From the NCBI GenBank assembly GCA_025331435.1, contig JAIWNI010000035.1, positions 186,001 to 250,000 of the forward strand: 64,000 nt of DNA. Reading direction: 5' to 3'. The stretch comes from Choanephora cucurbitarum. Taxonomy: Eukaryota; Mucoromycota; Mucoromycetes; Mucorales; Choanephoraceae. A model generated the notes under the pieces. That model saw only the letters and a program-made list of their open reading frames with translations. It ran no database searches and had not been told where the DNA came from. Each line of letters starts with the position of its first letter. Within the stretch, counting starts at the first letter, position 1. This document shows positions 8,910-59,476 of this stretch, piece by piece. The translations under genes and the position numbers were made by a program.

Positions 8910-9343
8910 TTTTTTTATGAAAAATAAACAAGGAAGAGAAGAGAAGAAAATGGTTTGGCCATTTATGTTAATTAAATACAGAATAGGGGGACTTTCAGGA
9001 GGAAAGACAAGGAGAAGCATCTAAAGCATTAAAGAAGCAAAGAGCTATTCACGCTTGCTTGAGTTCCATAATCTCGATACTACCGAATATCGCATTTATT
9101 AATGGCAGCAAATAGATGATATATTATTGTGCATATATAAATGCAACGGACATCATTTCGAAATAGTTTTCAGTGTAACATGTACGTCTCCTCAGCCTCG
9201 TTTCGCGACGCTACTTTCGTAATCAAACACAAAGAAAGAAAGAAAAACTTCTATTTCCAATCCGCTTCAATGATAAATCAAGAAACTAGGTTGATTTTGT
9301 TGAAGATCAATCCAGATGTTACACAGCTATTTTTTCTTTCTTT
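8910..9343. promoter_or_regulatory. Shared divergent promoter region
   Basis: 434 bp separate the start of the coiled-coil gene (minus) from Dcs1 (plus). A TATA-like TATATAA lies at 9134-9140 on the plus strand, about 200 bp upstream of the Dcs1 ATG. The sequence just before that ATG is pyrimidine-rich (TTTTTTCTTTCTTT), typical of fungal 5' leaders. Confidence 0.4.
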
Positions 9344-10228
9344 ATGGTTTCTTTAAGTGATATATTAGCCAAGTTTAGATTCGAGAGGGTTTTGTCAAAC
9401 GATACTCGTACAAAGCTACTTTATGTTCTGGGTCAGGTGAACGAACAAGACTGCATTCTTTCATTCGAAAGAACTCAGTTTGAAACCAACGTGATTTCTA
9501 CATTAGCATCACATGTAGATCAACAAAAGATACAAGATCTTGTCGAAAACAACATCTACGGATGGTGTACAACAGCTCTAAATAGTGATGACCTGGACAT
9601 CCGACTGAAGTATATTTTTCCGGCAACAGACGCCCATATCGCAAAATATGAAGCTCAACCACGCGTCATGTTGCTGGAAACACCTGCTCACTATCATGAT
9701 ATCACGTTACCTTACATAAAGAGTATACCTTTGAAGCGTACACAATGGGTTACAAACATATTGGAAGGCTCTGCAGAGGCAGAACGTGTCATTTATCACG
9801 ACCGTGATCCAGAAACAGGATTTGTGGTGCTACCTGATATGAAATGGGATGGTGAACTCGAGACGCTTTATTGGGTAGCTATTGCTATGCGTTCAGACAT
9901 TCTTTCATTGCGTTCGTTAAATCAACATCATTTAGCTTTTTTGAAAAAGCTCAGGGAGACAACTTACCGTCTTGTGCAAGAGAAGACTGGCTTGAATCCT
10001 CATCAATTGCGTTTGTTTGTTCATTATCAACCTTCTTATTATCACTTCCATCTACATATTACAGCTGTTTCTTTTAGTGATGCACCCGGTATCTTTTCGG
10101 GTCAAGCCCATTTACTAGACACTGTGATCAATAATATTGAACTTTGTGCAGACTATTACCAAAAAGCAACTATCCCGTTTACTATAGGCTCAAAACATGC
10201 ATTGTTCACAGAGCACACATGGCACTAA
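9344..10228 (+). CDS. DCS1: Scavenger mRNA decapping enzyme DcpS/Dcs1
   Basis: Intronless, 294 residues. DcpS hydrolyses the m7GpppN cap fragment left after 3'-5' mRNA decay, giving m7GMP and a nucleoside diphosphate. It acts in cytoplasm and nucleus as a homodimer. The N-terminal half (about 1-130) is the swapped dimerisation domain. The C-terminal half is a HIT domain with the catalytic histidine triad in HFHLHI (His234, His236, His238), preceded by LRLFVHYQPSYY. A conserved cap-pocket segment VVLPDMKWDG lies near 161-170, and GLNPHQLRLFVHY is also typical. The length is slightly shorter than animal enzymes (about 337) and close to fungal ones. The ATG at 9344 follows a pyrimidine-rich leader. 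Identification is firm from the HIT motif in this context. Confidence 0.93.
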   Translation: MVSLSDILAKFRFERVLSNDTRTKLLYVLGQVNEQDCILSFERTQFETNVISTLASHVDQQKIQDLVENNIYGWCTTALNSDDLDIRLKYIFPATDAHIAKYEAQPRVMLLETPAHYHDITLPYIKSIPLKRTQWVTNILEGSAEAERVIYHDRDPETGFVVLPDMKWDGELETLYWVAIAMRSDILSLRSLNQHHLAFLKKLRETTYRLVQEKTGLNPHQLRLFVHYQPSYYHFHLHITAVSFSDAPGIFSGQAHLLDTVINNIELCADYYQKATIPFTIGSKHALFTEHTWH

Positions 10229-29974: not shown

Positions 29975-32900
29975 ATGAAACGTTCTAGTACTGGAGATAA
30001 TTCACCAATAATTAAAAAGAAAGTTCGTGATAATACCACAGAAGAAGAACCCATCACAACAGATATTTTTTCGCCCATTCCTTCTGCAAACATGACACAT
30101 ACAACCCACACTGCAAGTGACTCTAATACATCACCTGCAGGCAGTATGAGTGTGATTCGTTATGTTTACGGTCTTGTACATAATTTAGAACAAGGAAACA
30201 TCGACCATTGTTTATCTCATTCCATAGACTCCTCTCAGTTTGACGAAACTCTAAGTGCGGCAGACACTGACTTGCTTAATGCACTTGATTCAAATCTCAA
30301 GAAGATTGCTCAACGTCAGTTGCAATTGGAGACAGAAAATCTTAGGAGTCGCATTATGATACAGCAGCAACATCAGCTTCTGACAGCCTCTAATCACGAA
30401 GAAAAAGACCATAGTGAGTCAAGCAAGGGACCAAGTCAAGAGGACAAAGAAAGGACAACGAACACTACACCTGAAGATAGTTTAACATCCGTTCACGATT
30501 CTTCTTTGCTCGAAAAATTAGAAAATTCATACCGCGAAATGCCCAAAATTCCCCAACAGAAAGAAAAAGGTAGCAAAAACAAAAAGAAAAAGTTTATTTA
30601 GCATCGTCTCATTTTCTCTTTCGTATCAGCAAAAACCTCCACAAATAACGATTTAGCTGCCGGCCTCGCTTCTCTATCATCTCCTCCACCATTCACTATA
30701 TCATCTATCGCTACTGCTTATCCTGTCTATTTTGGTTCAACATCTTCCTCTGCTATATCATTCCCTGCCGCTGCTGTTCAGACAAGCTCTGACAACATTG
30801 TATGCCCTGACTGTGTTATTCAAGCTGTTACTGTCGCCTGTGGTGTCTTTAACGGTGATTTAAATGGACGTATTACTTGTAAACATGAACGTTGTGTTGC
30901 TGGCACAAACGTCGAATCGGATGCCCCTATTAATACCTTAAAAAATGCCATTAATGCAATGGCCGACCAACTTCAAGGAATTACTGATGAAGTCAATTCA
31001 GTGGCTCATGAAACCGCTGTCAATGGCAAACTTGGTATTCAATGTAGCATCAAAGAAAAGAAAGGCTTATGGAAAGATTTTGTTGTCAACCTTAATCTAA
31101 TGACCAGAAATCATCTTGAGCAAGTGCGTGATATTGCTGATGTCTCACAAGCAATTGCTAGAGGTGATTTAAGTAAGGCAATGACCGCTCCTGTACGAGG
31201 TGAAACCTTATTGCTCAAGAACACATTCAACACAATGGGTAAGAATTTTTTTTGTCGAATTATCAAACCAGTGTAGCTCATCACTTTCTTTTCCTTGGTA
31301 GTAAACCAATTGAACTTGTTTGCTTCTGAAGTCTCAAGAGTGGCTCACGAAGTTGGTACTGAAGGTAAACTAGGTGCACAAGCCAAGGTACAAGGTGCAG
31401 ACGGTATTTGGAAAGAGTTGACAGACAATGTCAACACAATGGCTGCTAATCTTACGAATCAAGTGCGAGATATTGCTCAAGTTTCGAAGTCGGTAGCTCG
31501 AGGTAATTTAACCAAAAAGGTCACTGTGGAGGTTAGGGGTGAAATGCTGGATTTAAAAAACACCATTAACACCATGGTGGATCAAGTAAGTGTACCTCAA
31601 TCTAATGTCACTTCCCTAGACTAACCATTTTTGGAAACCAGTTATCCATATTTGCAACCGAAGTGACACGTGTGTCTCTAGAAGTTGGAACTGAAGGAAA
31701 ATTGGGTGGTCAAGCAATTGTTAAGGATGTTGCTGGTACCTGGAAAGATTTAACAGATAATGTCAACACAATGGCAACCCGGCTTACCGATCAGATGCGT
31801 GACATTGCAGTAGTCGCTAAAGCTGTTGCGCAGGGTGACTTGTCTAAAAAGGTTAAGGCCAATGCACAAGGTGAAGTATTGGAACTCAAGAATACTATGA
31901 ATAAGATGGTAAGTTCATGATGCGCTTCTTCTTTTTTTATTTTAAAGAGAGAAAAATGGCTTATCTCCTAATTCCTTTCAGGTGGATCAATTGTTACTTT
32001 TCTCTGCTGAAGTGCGAAGAGTATCATTGGAAGTGGGTGTTGAGGGTAAATTAGGTGGTCAGGCTGTTGTCAAAGATGTTGGCGGTACATGGAAAAACCT
32101 AACGGATAACGTGAACCAAATGGCCGCCAATCTAACCAATCAAGTCCGATCTATTGCTGAAGTAACTAAAGCTGTAGCAAACGGTGACTTATCAAAGAAG
32201 ATTGAAGTAGAAACCAGAGGAGAAATTCTCGACCTCAAGAACACAGTAAACGACATGGTGGATCAACTAAGAGTCTTTGCATCCGAAGTAACGCGTGTGT
32301 CTCGTGAAGTAGGAACCGAAGGCAAGCTAGGAGGAGAAGCTATTGTGCCAAGTGTCAGCGGAACTTGGAAGGATTTAACGGACAATGTCAATACCATGGC
32401 TGCCAACCTTACGACCCAAGTACGTTCTATCGCCGAGGTAACCAAAGCTGTTGCCAAGGGAGACTTGTCAAAAAAAATCTATGTTGAGACACAAGGTGAA
32501 ATACTTGACCTTAAGAATACAGTCAATAACATGGTGGATCAGCTGAATGTATTTGCTGCGGAAGTCACAAGAGTAGCTAAAGAAGTAGGCACAGAGGGCA
32601 AGCTAGGAGGTCAAGCGCTAGTGCCAAATGTCGATGGTACTTGGATGGATCTTACAGTGAACGTAAACCATATGGCCACCAACTTGACTAATCAAGTACG
32701 TTCAATTGCTGAGGTGACAAAAGCCGTAGCTCTTGGTGATTTGTCCAAAAAGATTGAAGTCGAGTCTGGTGGTGAAATCCTGGATTTGAAAAACATCGTG
32801 AATAACATGGTGGATCAGTTGAGAGTGTTCGCTTCAGAGGTCACGAGAGTGTCGAAGGAAGTCGGTACAGAGGGCAAGTTAGGTGGGCAAGCTGTTGTAC

Positions 32901-35900
32901 AAGGCGTGGCCGGTACATGGAATGAGTTGACGGTAAACGTTAATCACATGGCCACTAATCTGACCAACCAAGTACGTTCTATAGCTGAGGTGACAAAAGC
33001 CGTAGCTCTTGGTGATTTGTCCAAAAAGATTGAAGTCGAGTCTGGTGGTGAAATCCTGGATTTGAAAAACATCGTGAATAACATGGTGGATCAGTTGAGA
33101 GTGTTCGCTTCAGAGGTCACGAGAGTGTCAAAGGAAGTCGGTACAGAGGGTAAGCTTGGCGGTCAAGCTATGGTTCCCAACGTTGCTGGTACTTGGTTCG
33201 AGCTTACTGACAATGTAAACATCATGGCTGCCAACTTGACCAACCAAGTGCGATCGATTGCTGAAGTGACAAAGGCTGTAGCTTTAGGTGACTTATCCAA
33301 AAAGATCGAAGTTGAGTCCGGCGGTGAAATCCTAGACTTGAAGAACATTGTCAACAACATGGTGGATCAGTTGCGTATTTTTGCTTCCGAAGTAACAAGA
33401 GTGTCAAAGGAAGTGGGTACTGATGGTAAACTAGGCGGTCAGGCCCGCGTTCCTAATGTTGCGGGTACATGGTATGAGCTTACAAGTAACGTTAATATCA
33501 TGGCTGCCAACCTTACGACCCAAGTACGATCCATCGCTGAAGTAACGAAGGCTGTAGCCCTTGGCGACCTTTCGAAGAAAATTGAAGTTGAGTCTGGTGG
33601 TGAAATCTTAGATCTACAAAACATTGTCAATAACATGGTGGACCAGCTCAATGTCTTTGCATCTGAAGTATCTCGTGTTGCCAGAGAAGTAGGTACAGAA
33701 GGCAAGTTAGGTGGGCAAGCTGTTGTGCAGGGCGTAGCCGGTACATGGAACGAGTTAACAGATAACGTCAACACCATGGCTGCTAATCTTACGACCCAGG
33801 TACGATCTATCGCACAAGTGACAAAGGCTGTCGCCAATGGTGACTTGTCAAAGAAGATTGAGGTACAGACGAACGGTGAGATTCTTGACTTGAAGGACAC
33901 GGTGAATGACATGGTGGACCAACTGCGAGTGTTTGCTGCCGAAGTCACAAGAGTAGCTAAAGAAGTAGGAACAGAAGGCAAATTGGGCGGTCAAGCCAAG
34001 GTCGAAGGTGTTGCCGGTACCTGGATGGATCTTACAGACAATGTCAATACAATGGCTGCTAATTTGACGACGCAAGTAAGATCTATTGCGCAAGTAACAA
34101 AGGCTGTGGCTTTGGGCGACTTGTCAAAGAAGATCGAGGTCGAGTCTGGTGGTGAGATCTTAGAGCTTAAGGATATCGTAAACAACATGGTGGATCAACT
34201 GAGAGTGTTCGCTTCAGAGGTCACGAGAGTGTCAAAGGAAGTCGGTACAGAGGGTAAGCTTGGCGGTCAAGCTATGGTTCCCAACGTTGCTGGTACTTGG
34301 TTCGAGCTTACTGACAATGTAAACATCATGGCTGCCAACTTGACCAACCAAGTGCGATCGATTGCTGAAGTAACCAAGGCCGTTGCTCTTGGCGATTTGT
34401 CAAAGAAGATCGAAGTGGAATCTGGTGGTGAAATCTTGGACCTCAAAGTAACCGTCAATTCTATGGTAGACCAGCTGCGTATATTTGCCTCCGAAGTAAC
34501 TCGTGTAGCTAGAGAAGTAGGTACAGAAGGTAAGCTTGGTGGACAAGCTACCGTTGAAGGCGTTGCTGGTACATGGAACGAGTTGACCGACAATGTCAAC
34601 ACCATGGCTGCCAACTTAACTACACAAGTGCGTTCAATTGCACAAGTGACAAAGGCTGTCGCCAATGGTGACTTGTCAAAGAAGATTGAGGTACAGACGA
34701 ACGGTGAGATTCTTGACTTGAAGGACACGGTGAATGACATGGTGGACCAACTGCGAGTGTTTGCTGCCGAAGTCACAAGAGTAGCTAAAGAAGTAGGAAC
34801 AGAAGGCAAATTGGGCGGTCAAGCCAAGGTCGAAGGTGTTGCCGGTACCTGGATGGATCTTACAGACAATGTCAATACAATGGCTGCTAATTTGACGACG
34901 CAAGTAAGATCTATTGCGCAAGTAACAAAGGCTGTGGCTTTGGGCGACTTGTCAAAGAAGATCGAGGTCGAGTCTGGTGGTGAGATCTTAGAGCTTAAGG
35001 ATATCGTAAACAACATGGTGGATCAGTTGCGTATCTTTGCCTCTGAAGTCACGAGAGTGTCGAAGGAAGTCGGTACAGAGGGCAAACTAGGTGGTCAAGC
35101 TGTCGTACAAGGCGTGGCCGGTACATGGATGGATTTGACAGATAACGTAAACCAGATGGCTGCCAATTTGACTAATCAAGTGCGTTCAATTGCTGAAGTG
35201 ACAAAGGCTGTTGCTAGAGGTGACTTGTCAAAGAAGATCGAGGTCGAGTCTGGTGGTGAAATCCTGGATTTGAAAAATATCGTGAATAACATGGTGGACC
35301 AGTTGAACGTATTTGCTGCAGAAGTCACAAGAGTAGCCAAAGAAGTAGGCACGGAAGGCAAGCTTGGTGGACAGGCTCGTGTTCCAAATGTCGATGGTAC
35401 CTGGAAGGATTTGACGGATAATGTCAACACTATGGCCACCAACTTGACCAACCAAGTACGATCCATCGCTGAAGTAACGAAGGCTGTAGCCCTTGGCGAC
35501 CTTTCGAAGAAAATTGAAGTTGAATCCGGAGGTGAAATCCTGGATTTGAAGAACATTGTCAATAACATGGTGGACCAGCTCAATGTCTTTGCATCTGAAG
35601 TATCTCGTGTTGCCAGAGAAGTAGGTACAGAAGGCAAGTTAGGTGGGCAAGCTGTTGTGCAGGGCGTAGCCGGTACATGGAACGAGTTGACCGACAATGT
35701 CAACACCATGGCTGCCAACTTAACTACACAAGTGCGTTCAATTGCACAAGTGACAAAGGCTGTCGCCAATGGCGATCTGTCCAAGAAAATTGAAGTGCAG
35801 ACGAATGGTGAAATTTTAGAGCTGAAAGATACAGTTAATGATATGGTGGACCAATTAAACGTGTTTGCTTCAGAAGTTACTCGTGTTGCAAAAGAAGTAG

Positions 35901-38900
35901 GTACTGAGGGCAAGCTAGGTGGCCAAGCCAAGGTTGAAGGTGTTGCTGGTACCTGGATGGACCTTACAGACAATGTCAATACAATGGCTGCCAATCTTAC
36001 AACTCAGGTGCGTTCAATTGCACAAGTAACAAAAGCGGTAGCTCTTGGTGATTTGTCAAAGAAGATCGAAGTCGAGTCTGGTGGTGAGATCTTAGAGCTT
36101 AAGGATATTGTCAATGGCATGGTGGATCAGTTGCGTATCTTTGCCTCTGAAGTCACGAGAGTGTCGAAGGAAGTCGGTACAGAGGGCAAACTAGGTGGTC
36201 AAGCTGTCGTACAAGGCGTGGCCGGTACATGGATGGATTTGACAGATAACGTAAACCAGATGGCTGCCAATTTGACTAATCAAGTGCGTTCAATTGCTGA
36301 AGTGACAAAAGCCGTTGCCAATGGCGACCTGTCCAAGAAAATTGAAGTGGAATCCGGCGGTGAAATTTTAGAACTCAAGAATATCGTGAATAACATGGTG
36401 GACCAGTTGAATGTGTTTGCCTCTGAAGTCACAAGAGTGTCGAAGGAAGTCGGTACAGAGGGCAAACTAGGTGGTCAAGCTGTTGTACAAGGCGTTGCTG
36501 GTACTTGGAACGAATTGACTGACAATGTAAACATCATGGCAGCCAACTTGACTAATCAAGTGCGTTCTATTGCCGAGGTGACAAAAGCTGTTGCTAACGG
36601 TGATCTATCAAAAAAGATTCACGTTGAAACACGAGGTGAAATTCTTGATTTGAAGATTACTGTAAACGACATGGTTGACCAGCTTCGAGAGTTCTCATCT
36701 GAGGTTACTCGAGTCGCTCGTGAAGTCGGTACTGATGGTGCATTAGGTGGTCAAGCTAACGTACAAGGAGTTGCTGGAACTTGGAAAGACTTGACTGATA
36801 ATGTCAACACAATGGCTACAAACTTAACAACACAGGTCAGATCCATTGCTGTGGTCACAAAAGCTGTTGCAAAAGGTGATTTATCAAAAAAGATTGAAGT
36901 CGAGACACGTGGTGAAATCCGTGAGCTAAAGTTAGTACAATTTGATATCCAACTACATTACTGTTTATTGACCATAAATCTATAGAGAGACGGTGAATGA
37001 CATGGTGGACCAATTACGAGTCTTTGCAGCAGAAGTCACGAGAGTAGCCAGAGAAGTTGGTACTGAGGGTATACTTGGTGGACAAGCTACTATTGTGGGT
37101 GTCGATGGAACTTGGAAAGATTTGACTGATAATGTCAACCTGATGGCAAGTAACTTGACAGACCAACTTCGTGCAATTGCCGCTGTCTGTAAGGCTGTTG
37201 CTCAAGGAGACCTTAGCAAGAAGATCGAAGTAGAAGTACACGGCGAAATTGCTGAATTGAAAAACACAATCAATACAATGGTAGACCAGCTTAGTTCATT
37301 CGCTTCCGAAGTAACAAGAGTCGCTAAAGAAGTAGGAACGGAGGGTAAGCTTGGCGTTCAGGCTCAAGTAGAAGATATTGAGGGTTTGTGGCGTGACATT
37401 ACAAGCAATGTCAACACTATGGCTTCAAACTTGACTACTCAAGTACGTGCTTTTGCTCAAATTTCAGCTGCTGCTACCGAAAACGATTTCTCTCGTCTTA
37501 TTACTGTTGAAGCATCTGGTGAAATGGATTCATTGAAAACCAAGATTAATCAAATGGTAGGCTCCCTTCGTGACGCAATTCAGAAGAACAGACTTGCCAG
37601 AGAGGCTGCTGAATTGGCCAACCGATCTAAGAGTGAGTTCTTAGCCAACATGAGTCACGAAATCCGAACACCTATGAATGGTATCATTGGTATGACTACC
37701 CTTACTCTTGAAACTGAATTGACTAGACAACAGAGAGAAAACTTGATGATTGTTTCAAGTTTGGCTAACAGCTTGCTCACTATCATTGACGATATCTTGG
37801 ATATTTCAAAGATTGAAGCTGGTCGTATGACAATCGAGTCCATTCCATTCTCCCTTCGTTCTGCTGTCTTTAGTGTTCTCAAGACACTTGCTGTTAAAGC
37901 AAACCAAAAGAAGCTTGATCTTATTTACCATGTTGACCAATCTATTCCTGACCAGTTGATTGGTGATCCTCTACGTCTTCGCCAAGTCATTACTAATCTC
38001 ATAGGTAATGCTGTCAAGTTCACTACTCAAGGTGAAGTTGTTCTTCGTACCCGATCTGTCAGAATGCAGGATGGAACCGTTGTATTAGAATTCTGTGTTA
38101 GCGATACTGGTATTGGTATTCAAGAAGACAAACTGAATGTAATCTTTGACACCTTCTGTCAAGCTGATGGTAGTACTACGTAAGTAACTCCTTTTTTTCA
38201 TTCCAAACAAAATCTAATTTCTTTGAATTCTACATATAGCCGTGAATACGGTGGTACTGGTCTTGGTTTATCGATTTCTCGACACCTAGTTCAACTGATG
38301 GGTGGTGATTTATGGGTTGAGTCCAAATACGGTAGAGGATCTGAATTCTATTTCACTGTCAGCCTGCTTCGTTACAATCTTGACGACAAGGAAATCAAAG
38401 ACAAGATGCACAGATTCCGTAACAGACGAGTTTTATTCTTGGATAGCATGAACGATCAGACAGGCGCTTTGAACAAGATCAGTATGTTGGGTCTGAAGCC
38501 TTATCGTGTTGGAAGCATTGAAGAAGCTGCAGCTGTTTCAATTGCCAATTCAAGTAAAGTGAAGCATGCTCCTTTCTTTGACACTGTCATCATTGACAAG
38601 ATGGCGTTTGCTGAAAAGATCAGAGAGATTGTTCCACTACGCTATACTCCTATTGTCTTAATAGCTCCTGAAGCACATCTTCTCAACATGAAGCTATGCA
38701 TTGACCTTGGCATCACAGGCTATGCAAACTCCCCCTCAAACCTTGCCGATATGTTTGCAGTGCTCCTACCAGCCTTAGAAAGTCACGCAGCGCTGCCAAG
38801 TGATGCATCAAAGACTGTTCCATTAGAAATCCTTTTAGCTGAAGACAACGACGTCAACCAAAAGCTTGCTGTTCGTATACTAGAGAAATTCGGACATCAT

Positions 38901-39303
38901 GTTAAGGTCGTCGCTAATGGTAAATTAGCTGTTGAAGCTTTTGAATCTCAAGAGTTTGATTTGATTTTGATGGATGTGCAAATGCCTGTCATGGGTGGTT
39001 TTGAAGCTACGCAAAAGATTAGAGAAATTGAACATAGCATGAACAACAAGTCTCATATACCAATCATTGCTTTGACTGCCCATGCTATGATTGGTGATAG
39101 AGAAAAATGCTTACAAGCTGGCATGGTAAGCAATCAATTTTACTTCTCACTCATATTTGTTTGCTAATTCTTTTTTCTGTTAGGATGAATATGTCACCAA
39201 ACCACTTAGATTCCCCGAGCTCATTGCAGCTATAAAGAAATTTGCTCCCCAGTCAGCGCATATGATGGAAGGAAAGCCCAAGCCATCCTTATTAAAGAAA
39301 TAG
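29975..39303 (+). CDS. NIK1: Group III hybrid histidine kinase (Nik1/Os-1 type) with 23 HAMP units
   Basis: Eight exons: 29975..30569, 30630..31238, 31302..31585, 31642..31908, 31982..36930, 36986..38179, 38240..39125 and 39184..39303, giving 2,967 residues. Order: disordered N-terminus (1-260); tandem 92-residue HAMP units (about 262-2427); HisKA dimerisation helix with phospho-acceptor His2459 in [14 protein letters not shown]; HATPase with [20 protein letters not shown] and GGTGLGL; receiver domain with Asp2878 in [12 protein letters not shown]. No transmembrane segment is seen, so it is cytoplasmic. Family members act upstream of the HOG osmotic MAPK pathway and are the targets of fludioxonil and dicarboximides. 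Known members are about 1,100-1,300 residues with roughly five to seven repeats, so this one is more than twice as long, all of the excess being in the array. All domain signature residues are intact, so it is probably functional. Only the receiver of this hybrid protein is encoded; a separate phosphotransfer protein would be needed. Confidence 0.95.
30818..37560 (+). repeat. Array of 23 tandem 92-aa (276-bp) HAMP units
   Basis: Each unit carries (F/S)-E-V-x-R-V-x-x-E-V-G-(T/V)-E-G-K-L-G-G-Q-A, then G-T-W-x-(D/E)-L-T-x-N-V-N, N-L-T-x-Q-V-R-x-I-A, and G-D-L-S-K-K-I with G-E-I-L-(D/E)-L-K. I count one diverged unit in exon 2, one each in exons 3 and 4, 18 in exon 5 and two in exon 6. The edge units (first and last) differ most; the central ones are nearly identical. 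HAMP chains transmit conformational signals to the kinase core. Confidence 0.92.
32708..36309 (+). repeat. Exact duplicated blocks inside the HAMP array
   Basis: By eye, identical pairs are: 33812..34197 with 34640..35025 (386 bp, spacing 828); 35014..35205 with 36118..36309 (192 bp, spacing 1104); 33096..33267 with 34200..34371 (172 bp, spacing 1104); 32708..32853 with 32984..33129 (146 bp, spacing 276); and 33620..33756 with 35552..35688 (137 bp, spacing 1932). Every spacing is a whole multiple of 276. Confidence 0.9.
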
Positions 39304-55106: not shown

Positions 55107-56856
55107 TTATCCTGCATGTTCAACAGTAACAGTGACAAGCTTACCATCCACAATAGTAGTTTTGAATTGTTCAGGAACAGGCACTTCCTTGTATTCAATA
55201 TCATCATGTTCTGCAGCCTGTTCAGGCAACAAAACGTTCAAAGAAGTTGATTTGGCAGACAAAAGTTCAACACCCAAACAATCCTTTGAAAGATAGATTT
55301 CACCACCATCACACTTATCAACAGCAATAGTAGGAACAACCTTGAAGACCTGCAAGGCAAATGATTTGGAGTTGACCACATCCACAGTAGACACAGTGGA
55401 ATCAACAGCAATACCACACTTTGTACATGAGTCAATAGTTACAGCGTTTACCTTACCCTTGATACGGATAGTGGAGTTCTTACAGTTGAAGATATAGACA
55501 GCCTGGTTAATGGCTGTTTCCTCGATCACGATATCATGGTTATTTTCATGGTTCTCAACAACCCATTTGTTGGCTTCCAATGAGGTTTTGGCAGCTTTCT
55601 TAAGAGTGTACTTGTCAGGTTTATTGGGTGTGGGAGGACCTTGGCGCTTGGGTGAAGTAGGTGTGGCTACGGCTACAGAAGAACTTGCACGTAAACTAGG
55701 GTTCTTGTGTGTCATTTCACTCTTGTCCACCTTACGCAAGTTAGCTGTCACACTGGATCCTTTGTTGATTTCGGCAAAGACAGCAGCAGCACCACTGTTG
55801 GCAGCTTGAGCAGGCTTTTGATCGTCCTCAATGACCATAGGTGGGGGTGGAGGTGGAGGTGGGGGTGGACCACCTGCAGCAGGAGCAGGAGCAGCGGGAG
55901 TAGTAGTAGTAGTAGCAGAAAGCGATTTATCAGCAACTGCTTCAGGCTTCTCGCCATTGACATTCCAAGTCAAACCTGTAGGGAAGTTCTCCTTGACATA
56001 GACAGCCAAACTTTCAAGAAGGCCCAAGAAGGCTTGAGACCATTCAACATGTTTAGCATCTCTATAAACAAATAAAGGTCAATCCATGCTCTTTCCTTTT
56101 CTGTTTCATGTCTTTACTTTTCTTTCCATTCTTTGACAACGCGGTTTGAATAGAATTGAGCTGCATCTTTCATGTCACGAATAAAAGGCACAGGAGTGGG
56201 CTCCTATTGGCCAAAAAATGCTAATTAATATACATATTTTTAAACGCGTATCGTATACAAATTGCATGACTTTACACAAGTGAACCAACCGAGAGCAGGA
56301 ATACCTTCGGCTACTGTGCTCAAGTGATTAAATAGAGGATCAGGACGATTGGCATCCTTGATTTCCATGATACTGCCCAAGGATTTTTGGATAGGCTCTA
56401 GCAATTTCATAAAAGTAGGTGATGTCATATCAGGCTTTTGTGAGAGGGTTGAGATGTAAATAATGTCTTTTTCGGCAGCAATGGCTTGCTTGACTAAGGC
56501 AGCCTAAAAGAGAATAAAGACAATGGTCAACTATTGAGTCTTACTTTAGGATAAGAAATAGACTTTACTTGTTCTGCTACAAGACCACCTAATTCTTGAG
56601 ACAAACTCAAGTATTTCTCGAGAGAAGCCTTGATGGCATCGTCATGCTTTTCAACAGCAGCTGGTATTTCGGTGGTTGAGACAGCACCAGTAGAAGTAGC
56701 AGTTGTGTTGTTTGCAGGAGCGATGGCCTTAGGAGAAGATGGTGATTTGGCAGCCACTGCAGAAGCAGAAGAAGAAGACATGGCCAAGTCTTCGAGACGT
56801 GTGGTAGCTATCTCGAGCCGTTTGATGAGATTAGCTAGTGAATGGAATTCAGACAT
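55107..56856 (-). CDS. SRV2: Adenylyl cyclase-associated protein CAP/Srv2
   Basis: Four exons: 56856..56569, 56503..56276, 56203..56118 and 56061..55107, giving 518 residues. CAP recycles actin by binding cofilin-bound G-actin and catalysing nucleotide exchange, and links Ras to adenylyl cyclase in fungi. The N-terminal segment SLANLIKRLEIATTRLEDLA is the cyclase-binding coiled coil. The helical folded domain includes PALGWFTCEPTPVPFIRDMK and FYSNRVVKEWKEKDAKHVEW. A run of ten prolines (PPPPPPPPPPM) and an SPKRQGPPTP stretch form the profilin/SH3-binding linker. The C-terminal beta-helix CARP domain reads KWVVENHENNHDIVIEE, IFNCKNSTIRIKGKVN and DCLGVELLSAKSTSLNVLLP. Its stop lies 51 bp from the stop of the convergent Rpp14-like gene. 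Confidence 0.95.
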
Positions 56857-58091: not shown

Positions 58092-59476
58092 ATGGCTTCT
58101 CCTAGTTCTTATCCCTCTTCTTTGCAATCTGTGTAAGTTTGGGTTCATTCTGACATCCTCAGCGGAGAAATTGATAGTCTTGAAATAGCTCGAAAAAAAG
58201 ACCCAAAGTATCTAAAAGAGAACTGGCCAGACTTGAAGCTGACAACAATAAAAGAAGTAAGACTTAAAGAGACGAGAGATTTGGTTTTCGATAACTTACT
58301 TTTTATTAGCCAAACGAGATCTACCTAAATGTCCCATTTGTGAATACCGCATTGAGCCAGCTTACTGGGCAGACCATTATCAGTATGAGCTCAGTCGGTT
58401 AGCAGAACCTACTTCAGAAGCCTATGCTAATTCATCTACTGCAACGTAAGTACCAAGTACTTGATTTGATTTAAAAGAAGCACTCACTATAGCATAGTAA
58501 AGGAAAACGCGGTGCAGCAGTAGCCGCTAAGCGTCAGTTAGAAGGCAAAGGCAAAAAGAAGCTCAGTCTATATGAAGAAACACTAGAGAAAATACAAAAG
58601 AATCGCAACAAACGCATGGATCGATTAAAGCAGATCAACAACAAAAGTGTATTGGACATATCAACAGCGGATACAACTCAAGACGATTCTGAACTTGCCC
58701 TAAGAGTTCAAATGGAAGAGCAAGAAAACTCGGGCGAAGTACAGACATGCTTCATCTGTAACGAACGCCTCTGCGGAGACTCGGAGGCAATCAATTTACA
58801 TATCGATAATTGCTTGAGCAATCCCAAATCACCATCTGAAAATGAAGAGCAAGACGATGATGATGATGATAGCGACACATACAACGATACACCACAAGCC
58901 TCTTCAGGCTGGGAAGAATACGAATGGGCTGGTCAACGACGTGTACGTGCAACAGCCATGATGGAAGGTGGATATGGAGGAGCAGGTTTTGCTACAGCCA
59001 GTAAAGTAGAAGAAGACAATGATGAAGATCTAGATGTTGAGGATGATGATGCAGATGAATATGGCGAGAGTCAATATACCGAAAGAGATGTTGTAAATAA
59101 TGGTGACGACGAAGATACATCTGCTTTACGTCAAATGGTCTCTGGCAGTACTGGACAAACACGACAGGGATTTGAGGAAAGCGTTTCTGAAACTGGTTGG
59201 CAAGAGCATCTAAGTAAAGAAGATAAAGTGCCATCTGCAGGTCGATCCAATCTGTTAATCGACTCTCTAAAGGCTCGTATTCATCAATTGGAATCAGCTT
59301 CGAAATCTGCCAATTGTTTGATCTGTCTAGAGCCTTACAAGACACCACTCACTTCCATTGTTTGCTGGCATGTTCATTGTGAACAATGCTGGCTAGAAAC
59401 ACTAGGCACAAAGAAGCTTTGTCCTCAATGTCAAAAGATTACTACGCCTGCCAACTTGCGTCGTATCTATCTTTAG
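58092..59476 (+). CDS. RNF220-like RING E3 ubiquitin ligase (frame break at one intron)
   Basis: Exons 58092..58132, 58163..58256, 58310..58445 and 58498..59476, about 416 residues. An N-terminal zinc motif LPKCPICEYRI is followed by a conserved H-Y-Q-Y-E-L segment. The middle part has a second Cys pair (CFICNERLCGDSEAINLHI), acidic stretches and the block WEEYEWAGQRRVRATAMMEG that is specific to RNF220. The C-terminal RING is CLICLEPYKTPL, CWHVHCEQCW, CPQC and ends NLRRIYL as in RNF220. Such ligases transfer ubiquitin to nuclear substrates. The first 40 residues are short. Intron 2 does not keep frame: exon 2 ends in phase 0 but exon 3 needs two leading bases (CC) plus one more, so the summed exons are one base short of a multiple of three. 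Confidence 0.8.

Follow-up and report, generated by a model that had tools for sequence, protein, structure and literature searches.

A group III histidine kinase with 23 tandem HAMP units and its long-array relatives among fungi

What is to be made of a stress-sensing kinase that carries 23 tandem HAMP units, when reviews give 5-7 repeats for group III histidine kinases (PMC5159414)? The question is raised by a gene in the window, a stretch of 64,000 nucleotides (C279:186001-250000) of a genome of 33.4 Mb in 357 contigs, and its 23 units place it outside that range. The first-pass annotation of this DNA measured the gene against Nik1, Os-1 and DhNik1 at 5-7 repeats, a comparison that holds for Dikarya and fails as a yardstick for the clade of the window gene. 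The published 5-7 is mostly a Dikarya figure, and the number of repeats does not define the family. The window gene is an ordinary member of a stress-sensing kinase family that is often equally long in related moulds.

Gene model, kinase core and a repeat unit read as a pair

Joining eight exons (Table 1) yields a protein of 2,967 aa in which the sole stop is the terminal one. All seven introns have GT...AG ends and measure 55-73 bases, and the splicing is inferred from the sequence and from the similar layout of the paralogue described below. The first-pass annotation had proposed about 2,967 residues in eight exons, an array free of stops and frameshifts, an intact HisKA-HATPase-receiver core and membership of group III. 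The joined reading frame bears out the first two, the core is confirmed by Pfam matches and catalytic motifs, and the group III hybrid identity is supported by the Pfam core, the motifs and the tandem HAMP units. HisKA, HATPase_c and Response_reg all score above the Pfam cut-offs, and the core contains motifs that we take to be the H-box (SHEIRTP), N-box, G1 and G2, together with the DD, D, T and K of the receiver (LILMDVQMP at aa 2874 and YVTKPL at aa 2931). The published alignment of the group III H-box signature takes the form of a figure. In sequence clustering, the window core falls with proteins whose source records call them NIK1 or osmosensor. The highest 19-residue Kyte-Doolittle mean is a borderline 1.65, at aa 2488 inside the kinase, and is the sole such stretch in the protein.

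Table 1. Coordinates of the kinase gene and its parts in the window
Feature	Position	Strand	Basis or remark
Group III hybrid histidine kinase gene	29975..39303	+	Exon model from GT-AG sites, open frame and homology
Exons 1-4	29975-30569, 30630-31238, 31302-31585, 31642-31908	+	Predicted model
Exons 5-8	31982-36930, 36986-38179, 38240-39125, 39184-39303	+	Predicted model
N-terminal region, aa 1-305	29975..30949	+	Composition; intron 1 inside
Array, aa 306-2421: 23 units of 92 aa, 46 HAMP half-units	30950..37544	+	Profile count
N-terminal end units 2-5	31226..32521	+	Unique counterparts in 12/12 orthologues
Middle units 6-20 (fluid)	32522..36661	+	Unique counterparts in 0-2 of 12 orthologues
386-base exact repeat, copy 1	33812..34197	+	Sequence comparison; holds unit 11 (33902-34177)
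386-base exact repeat, copy 2	34640..35025	+	Sequence comparison; holds unit 14 (34730-35005)
Kinase-proximal units 21-23	36662..37544	+	Intron 5 inside; units 22 and 23 with unique counterparts at the same end distance in 12/12
HisKA	37626..37823	+	Pfam PF00512, 3.9e-19; SHEIRTP at aa 2458, phospho-accepting His codon 37656-37658
HATPase_c	37962..38366	+	Pfam PF02518, 9.7e-13 (exon 6) and 6.4e-10 (exon 7); interrupted by intron 6
Receiver domain and C-terminus	38829..39303	+	Pfam PF00072, 4.9e-22 in exon 7; interrupted by intron 7

Ahead of the array, aa 1-305 are rich in S, T, Q, N and P (0.39). Pfam and NCBIfam scans of exon 1 gave zero matches, and no other sensor domain was found there. 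The end of this region may hold a degenerate first canonical HAMP half; at the equivalent N-terminal place a canonical half was detected in the paralogue only (half-unit profile, score 9.0).

The array itself is regular to the residue, with all 22 unit-to-unit steps equal to 92 aa, a last unit of 92 aa too, and zero insertions or deletions. Tandem Repeats Finder independently reported a period of 276 bases in 17.4 copies over 32120-36920, and Pfam marked 18 HAMP stretches within exon 5 alone. A decayed array was rejected on the strength of the open frame and the uniform unit length. The first-pass count of 23 units of 92 residues is exact for the assembled sequence; its equation of one unit with one HAMP gives way to a reading as pairs, preferred on account of the alternating half-units and of the published layout of CaNik1, for which nine HAMPs are reported, in four pairs of 92 aa and one single (PMC3848655). 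On this reading of each 92-aa unit as two HAMPs, the window chain would comprise about 46 HAMPs against the nine of CaNik1.

Two half-unit profiles found 46 half-units in the window protein, 23 of each type in unbroken alternation. In a survey of 223 proteins with at least eight half-units, which covered 6,508 neighbouring half-unit pairs, canonical and divergent halves alternated without any same-type neighbours in 215, while eight proteins broke the alternation with one such neighbour pair each; the profiles were built from the proteins counted, so the exercise tests the order of the halves, not their existence. The final half-unit of the array is canonical in 216 of the 223, and in the window protein this terminal canonical half runs into HisKA. 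Pfam assigns one HAMP to each unit, the best matches of HAMP and HAMP_2 overlapping on the canonical half, and direct comparison of the two half profiles gave a weak match (score 14.6, P 0.009; best of 20 shuffled controls 12.1). The PDB chains 9trk (E 2.3e-75) and 9trj (1.9e-34), deposited as 'histidine kinase,Gcn4p', match the array.

HAMP matches in the genome number 34, with 22 on the window's contig, 12 on contig C46 and zero elsewhere. The second gene, on C46 (L009 1874-8443), encodes 2,053 aa with 14 units and shares 89% identity with the window core over 206 aa. It is without the window gene's fifth intron and keeps the other six; the equivalent of intron 6 reads open in frame. Its product belongs to a separate clade, which it shares with a 12-unit Blakeslea protein and with Mucor proteins that have 21-22 units. 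The idea that a short group III kinase does the work elsewhere in the genome was rejected, because the two HAMP genes found are both long and leave no short group III kinase for the job. On six more contigs there are matches to the kinase core (40-47% identity) unaccompanied by any to HAMP, and one HPt locus was found. Other open reading frames in the window match ordinary genes: a DcpS decapping enzyme at 9290-10225 (+), an adenylate cyclase-associated protein at 55110-56078 (-) and an RNF220-like RING ligase at 58493-59473 (+).

Array length among related kinases

Three protein searches, with the best 120 matches taken from each, gave 225 distinct proteins in which units were counted by profile. 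Among those listed, 142 bear fungal names, the 83 without a fungal name were pooled, and four of the 225 contain no unit. The counts depend on database gene models, include strains and partial models, and use clades assigned from source names. Most entries listed by the third search, intended as a control for Dikarya, were Mucorales, bacterial or metagenome proteins, and the Dikarya range used here comes from papers plus 14 rows (two Ascomycota, two Tilletia and ten Mycenaceae).

The first-pass claim that 23 units are exceptional does not survive this survey. At least 20 units are found in 48 of the 142 fungal-named proteins listed and in 27 of the 53 listed Mucorales from outside Rhizopus, so that 20 or more units are ordinary in the clade once Rhizopus (2 of 33) is set apart. 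Among the fungal-named proteins, 22 have at least 23 units and 11 have more than 23, up to a maximum of 37 in Coemansia. Listed Mucorales as a whole range from 6 to 26 units, with 29 of 86 at 20 or above; outside Rhizopus the minimum among those listed is 9, which counts against tolerance of any length. The corresponding shares in the other groups listed are 12 of 16 in Mortierellomycotina (range 11-30), all five in Kickxellomycotina and Dimargaritomycotina (21-37), one of ten in Mycenaceae (14-20) and one of five in Basidiobolus (9-20). Both listed chytrid rows have 11 units, eight Glomeromycotina rows have 7-9, three Umbelopsis rows have 7 and one has 17, two Ascomycota rows have 4 and two Tilletia rows have 6. 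Individual examples are Blakeslea P0041 with 19 units, Helicostylum P0031 with 26, Mortierella alpina P0121 with 30 and Coemansia P0131 with 37, and congeners may differ, as do Linnemannia zychae (28) and L. elongata (23). An oddity confined to the window genome was rejected, long arrays being frequent in related moulds.

Some rows call for caution of their own. Orthologues under the name Rhizopus delemar (for example P0055, P0057, P0061, P0065 and P0069) count 10-13 units, fewer than the 17 of strain RA 99-880 (P0046); the short arrays are either true strain variation or collapse in small contigs. The two Coemansia proteins that were tried (P0122 and P0131; 4,990 and 5,170 aa, 37 units each) do not contain the H-box pattern used, nor does Syncephalis P0123, and all three may be either divergent kinases or products of gene-model faults.

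The kinship of the window gene was placed with two quick trees, both without bootstrap. The first used 87 of 90 rows, P0122, P0131 and P0123 being dropped for want of the H-box pattern, and omitted 16 Rhizopus rows of the window clade as well as P0099. The second restored those Rhizopus rows and P0099 and comprised 88 cores, P0150 being dropped as short; in it the window core groups with 29 others (SH-aLRT 100), which have 10-26 units. With the added rows, the share of the orthologue clade at 20 units or above changed from 8 of 12 in the first tree to 9 of 29 in the second, and the nine clade-mates from outside Rhizopus have 18-26 units, seven of them at least 20. The nearest kin among the proteins listed is Blakeslea P0041 (99% core identity), and the host mould is, judging from its two HAMP kinases alone, close to Blakeslea trispora.

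Conserved ends and a middle that appears to change by whole repeats

The first-pass proposal that selection keeps the array in frame is supported by the divergence among its units. For units 4-21 the mean pN is 0.11 and the mean pS 0.73, and amino acids shared between units have differing codons in 54.3% of cases, against 61.2 +- 0.8% for random synonymous codons (0.543 versus 0.612), a value near saturation that has not reached it. Both measures reject a wholly recent expansion, and they indicate that most of the units are old and that purifying selection acts on them. Set among these older units are pairs that mark recent exchange or duplication, since units 11 and 14 are identical and pairs 15/19, 8/12 and 10/17 share 89-91% of their DNA.

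Position along the chain was compared by reciprocal best units in 12 orthologues, those of the first tree (Table 1). Units 2-4 keep their distance from an end in all 12 and unit 5 in only 3, while unit 21 has an unambiguous counterpart in 8 and unit 1 in 2. The last unit, 23, is 99% identical to the last unit of the paralogue. The Blakeslea P0041 array is colinear with that of the window at 98-100% identity per unit, with units 8-11 absent. The same pattern extends to 12 other, more distant proteins, both short and long, in all of which the last unit has window unit 23 as its best match; in 8 of the 10 non-Dikarya proteins among them the second and third units match window units 2 and 3, the exceptions being Funneliformis, shifted by one place, and Phycomyces, without a unit-2 match. 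By these comparisons the ends of the chain look fixed, and the middle looks to change by whole repeats.

Middle units tend to resemble each other within a protein more than they resemble those of the window, with similarity within the protein and to the window at 83 and 74 in M. alpina, 77 and 67 in Coemansia, 81 and 69 in Mycena, 87 and 71 in Basidiobolus, and 92 and 84 in Phycomyces. The window's own middle units stand at 86 within the protein and 85 to the paralogue, and the within-protein excess is small in Mucorales, Phycomyces apart. Because this likeness exceeds that between distant lineages, the long middles arose, or were homogenised, more than once.

A proposed tolerant rod, its alternatives and known systems

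With a probability of roughly 0.7, the gene encodes a soluble Nik1-type kinase whose poly-HAMP rod is conserved at the ends and tolerates recombination in a middle of about 15 interchangeable units, the number of which differs between relatives. Paired in parallel, two chains would make a coiled-coil rod; at 0.15 nm per residue, 46 HAMPs with 16-residue helices (PMC5159414) would give it an estimated length of about 110 nm. Neighbouring HAMPs would adopt opposite conformations, a stress input would shift the pattern, and the last pairs would switch the kinase, whose output would reach the HOG pathway by a phosphorelay that includes a Ypd1-like HPt protein, a connection that, like the dimeric rod, is carried over from other species. 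The middle would grow and shrink by unequal recombination or conversion between units. Gain or loss of whole pairs would leave coiled-coil register and output parity unshifted, which would explain why drift by whole pairs is tolerated, and array length would be loosely constrained rather than finely set, with each unit under purifying selection. The conserved ends fit the published control sites, as control of DhNik1 is placed in the kinase-proximal HAMPs (PMC5159414), and the osmotic response of TcsC is lost on removing the N-terminus, not the HAMPs (PMC11253588). Group III kinases are targets of fludioxonil. Long arrays may keep the usual response, to judge from the 19 units of R. stolonifer P0054 and from the listing of Rhizopus among the fungi that fludioxonil is used against (PMC5159414).

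Alternatively, array length could be adaptive, the number of HAMP pairs serving as a tuner, ruler or tether that sets gain, threshold or reach at a value proper to each lineage. The recurrence of long arrays in separate lineages, with middle units more alike within a protein, and purifying selection on every unit agree with this idea, which is nonetheless unlikely, as close relatives differ in length (23 units in the window against 19 in Blakeslea at 99% core identity, and 28 against 23 in Linnemannia) and selection on units is itself no proof of selection on their number. A version of comparably low probability would make the variable middle a heritable tuning dial, with copy number changing in steps of about 4.8 nm, parity kept, and the end pairs acting as input and output couplers; if so, lineages could shift the threshold or gain of their osmostress kinase by copy number alone, along a rod of about 110 nm.

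A little less likely again is that sensing falls to the extra HAMP pairs, which might respond for instance to crowding, ionic strength or a small molecule, with more pairs raising sensitivity. The scans of exon 1 gave no other sensor domain, and HAMP mutations in Bos1 are reported to alter fungicide and osmotic responses (PMC3418262), but the osmotic response of TcsC depends on the N-terminus rather than the HAMPs (PMC11253588), and no residue pattern in the middle units was tied to binding. An assembly error that expanded or collapsed the array is very improbable: the copies of the 386-base repeat around units 11 and 14 lie 828 bases apart, so that short reads could mis-circle in steps of three units, and Blakeslea has four units fewer, but the next longest exact repeat is 192 bases, other unit pairs reach at most 91% DNA identity, units 8 and 9, which Blakeslea lacks, have colinear partners in Gilbertella that align at 98 and 91%, and proteins of other species show 17-37 units.

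Like the window protein, the Dikarya group III kinases Nik1, Os-1, Bos1, DhNik1, CaNik1 and TcsC have 92-aa units read as HAMP pairs, a HisKA-HATPase-REC core and no clear transmembrane segment, for the window protein as judged by hydropathy (PMC3848655, PMC5159414); they differ in having 5-7 repeats (PMC5159414) against 23, and in the window protein position-specific units occur at the ends only. Roles numbered in the manner of DhNik1 HAMP4 and HAMP5 (PMC5159414) may need restating as end-position roles, because only the end units were position-specific in the 12 orthologues compared. The long-array kinases of Mucorales, Mortierellomycotina and Kickxellomycotina have the layout and unit length of the window gene, which belongs to the Mucorales set, and differ from it only in the number and order of middle units, the Coemansia rows being without the H-box pattern searched for. 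From 4 to 37 units, the family forms a natural length series in which the fate of a HAMP signal along the chain, be it decay, inversion or unaltered passage, could be tested. No description of the long-array family or of the series was found in the available text of the literature searched, which covered few subscription journals.

Aer2 and the bacterial poly-HAMP receptors and kinases have concatenated HAMPs with alternating conformers (PMC3570549), as proposed here for the window protein. Aer2 differs in that its haem PAS domain is flanked by three plus two HAMPs; its match to the array reaches only E 0.0045. Arrays of this 92-aa unit, with up to 17 copies, also occur in the bacterial-named and metagenome rows listed, many bacterial rows having GAF domains. 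Bacterial-named (Streptomyces, Rhizobium) and unnamed rows (P0155, P0174, P0154, P0156 and others) usually have a single spacing of 97 or 102, which points to an insertion at one place in the chain.
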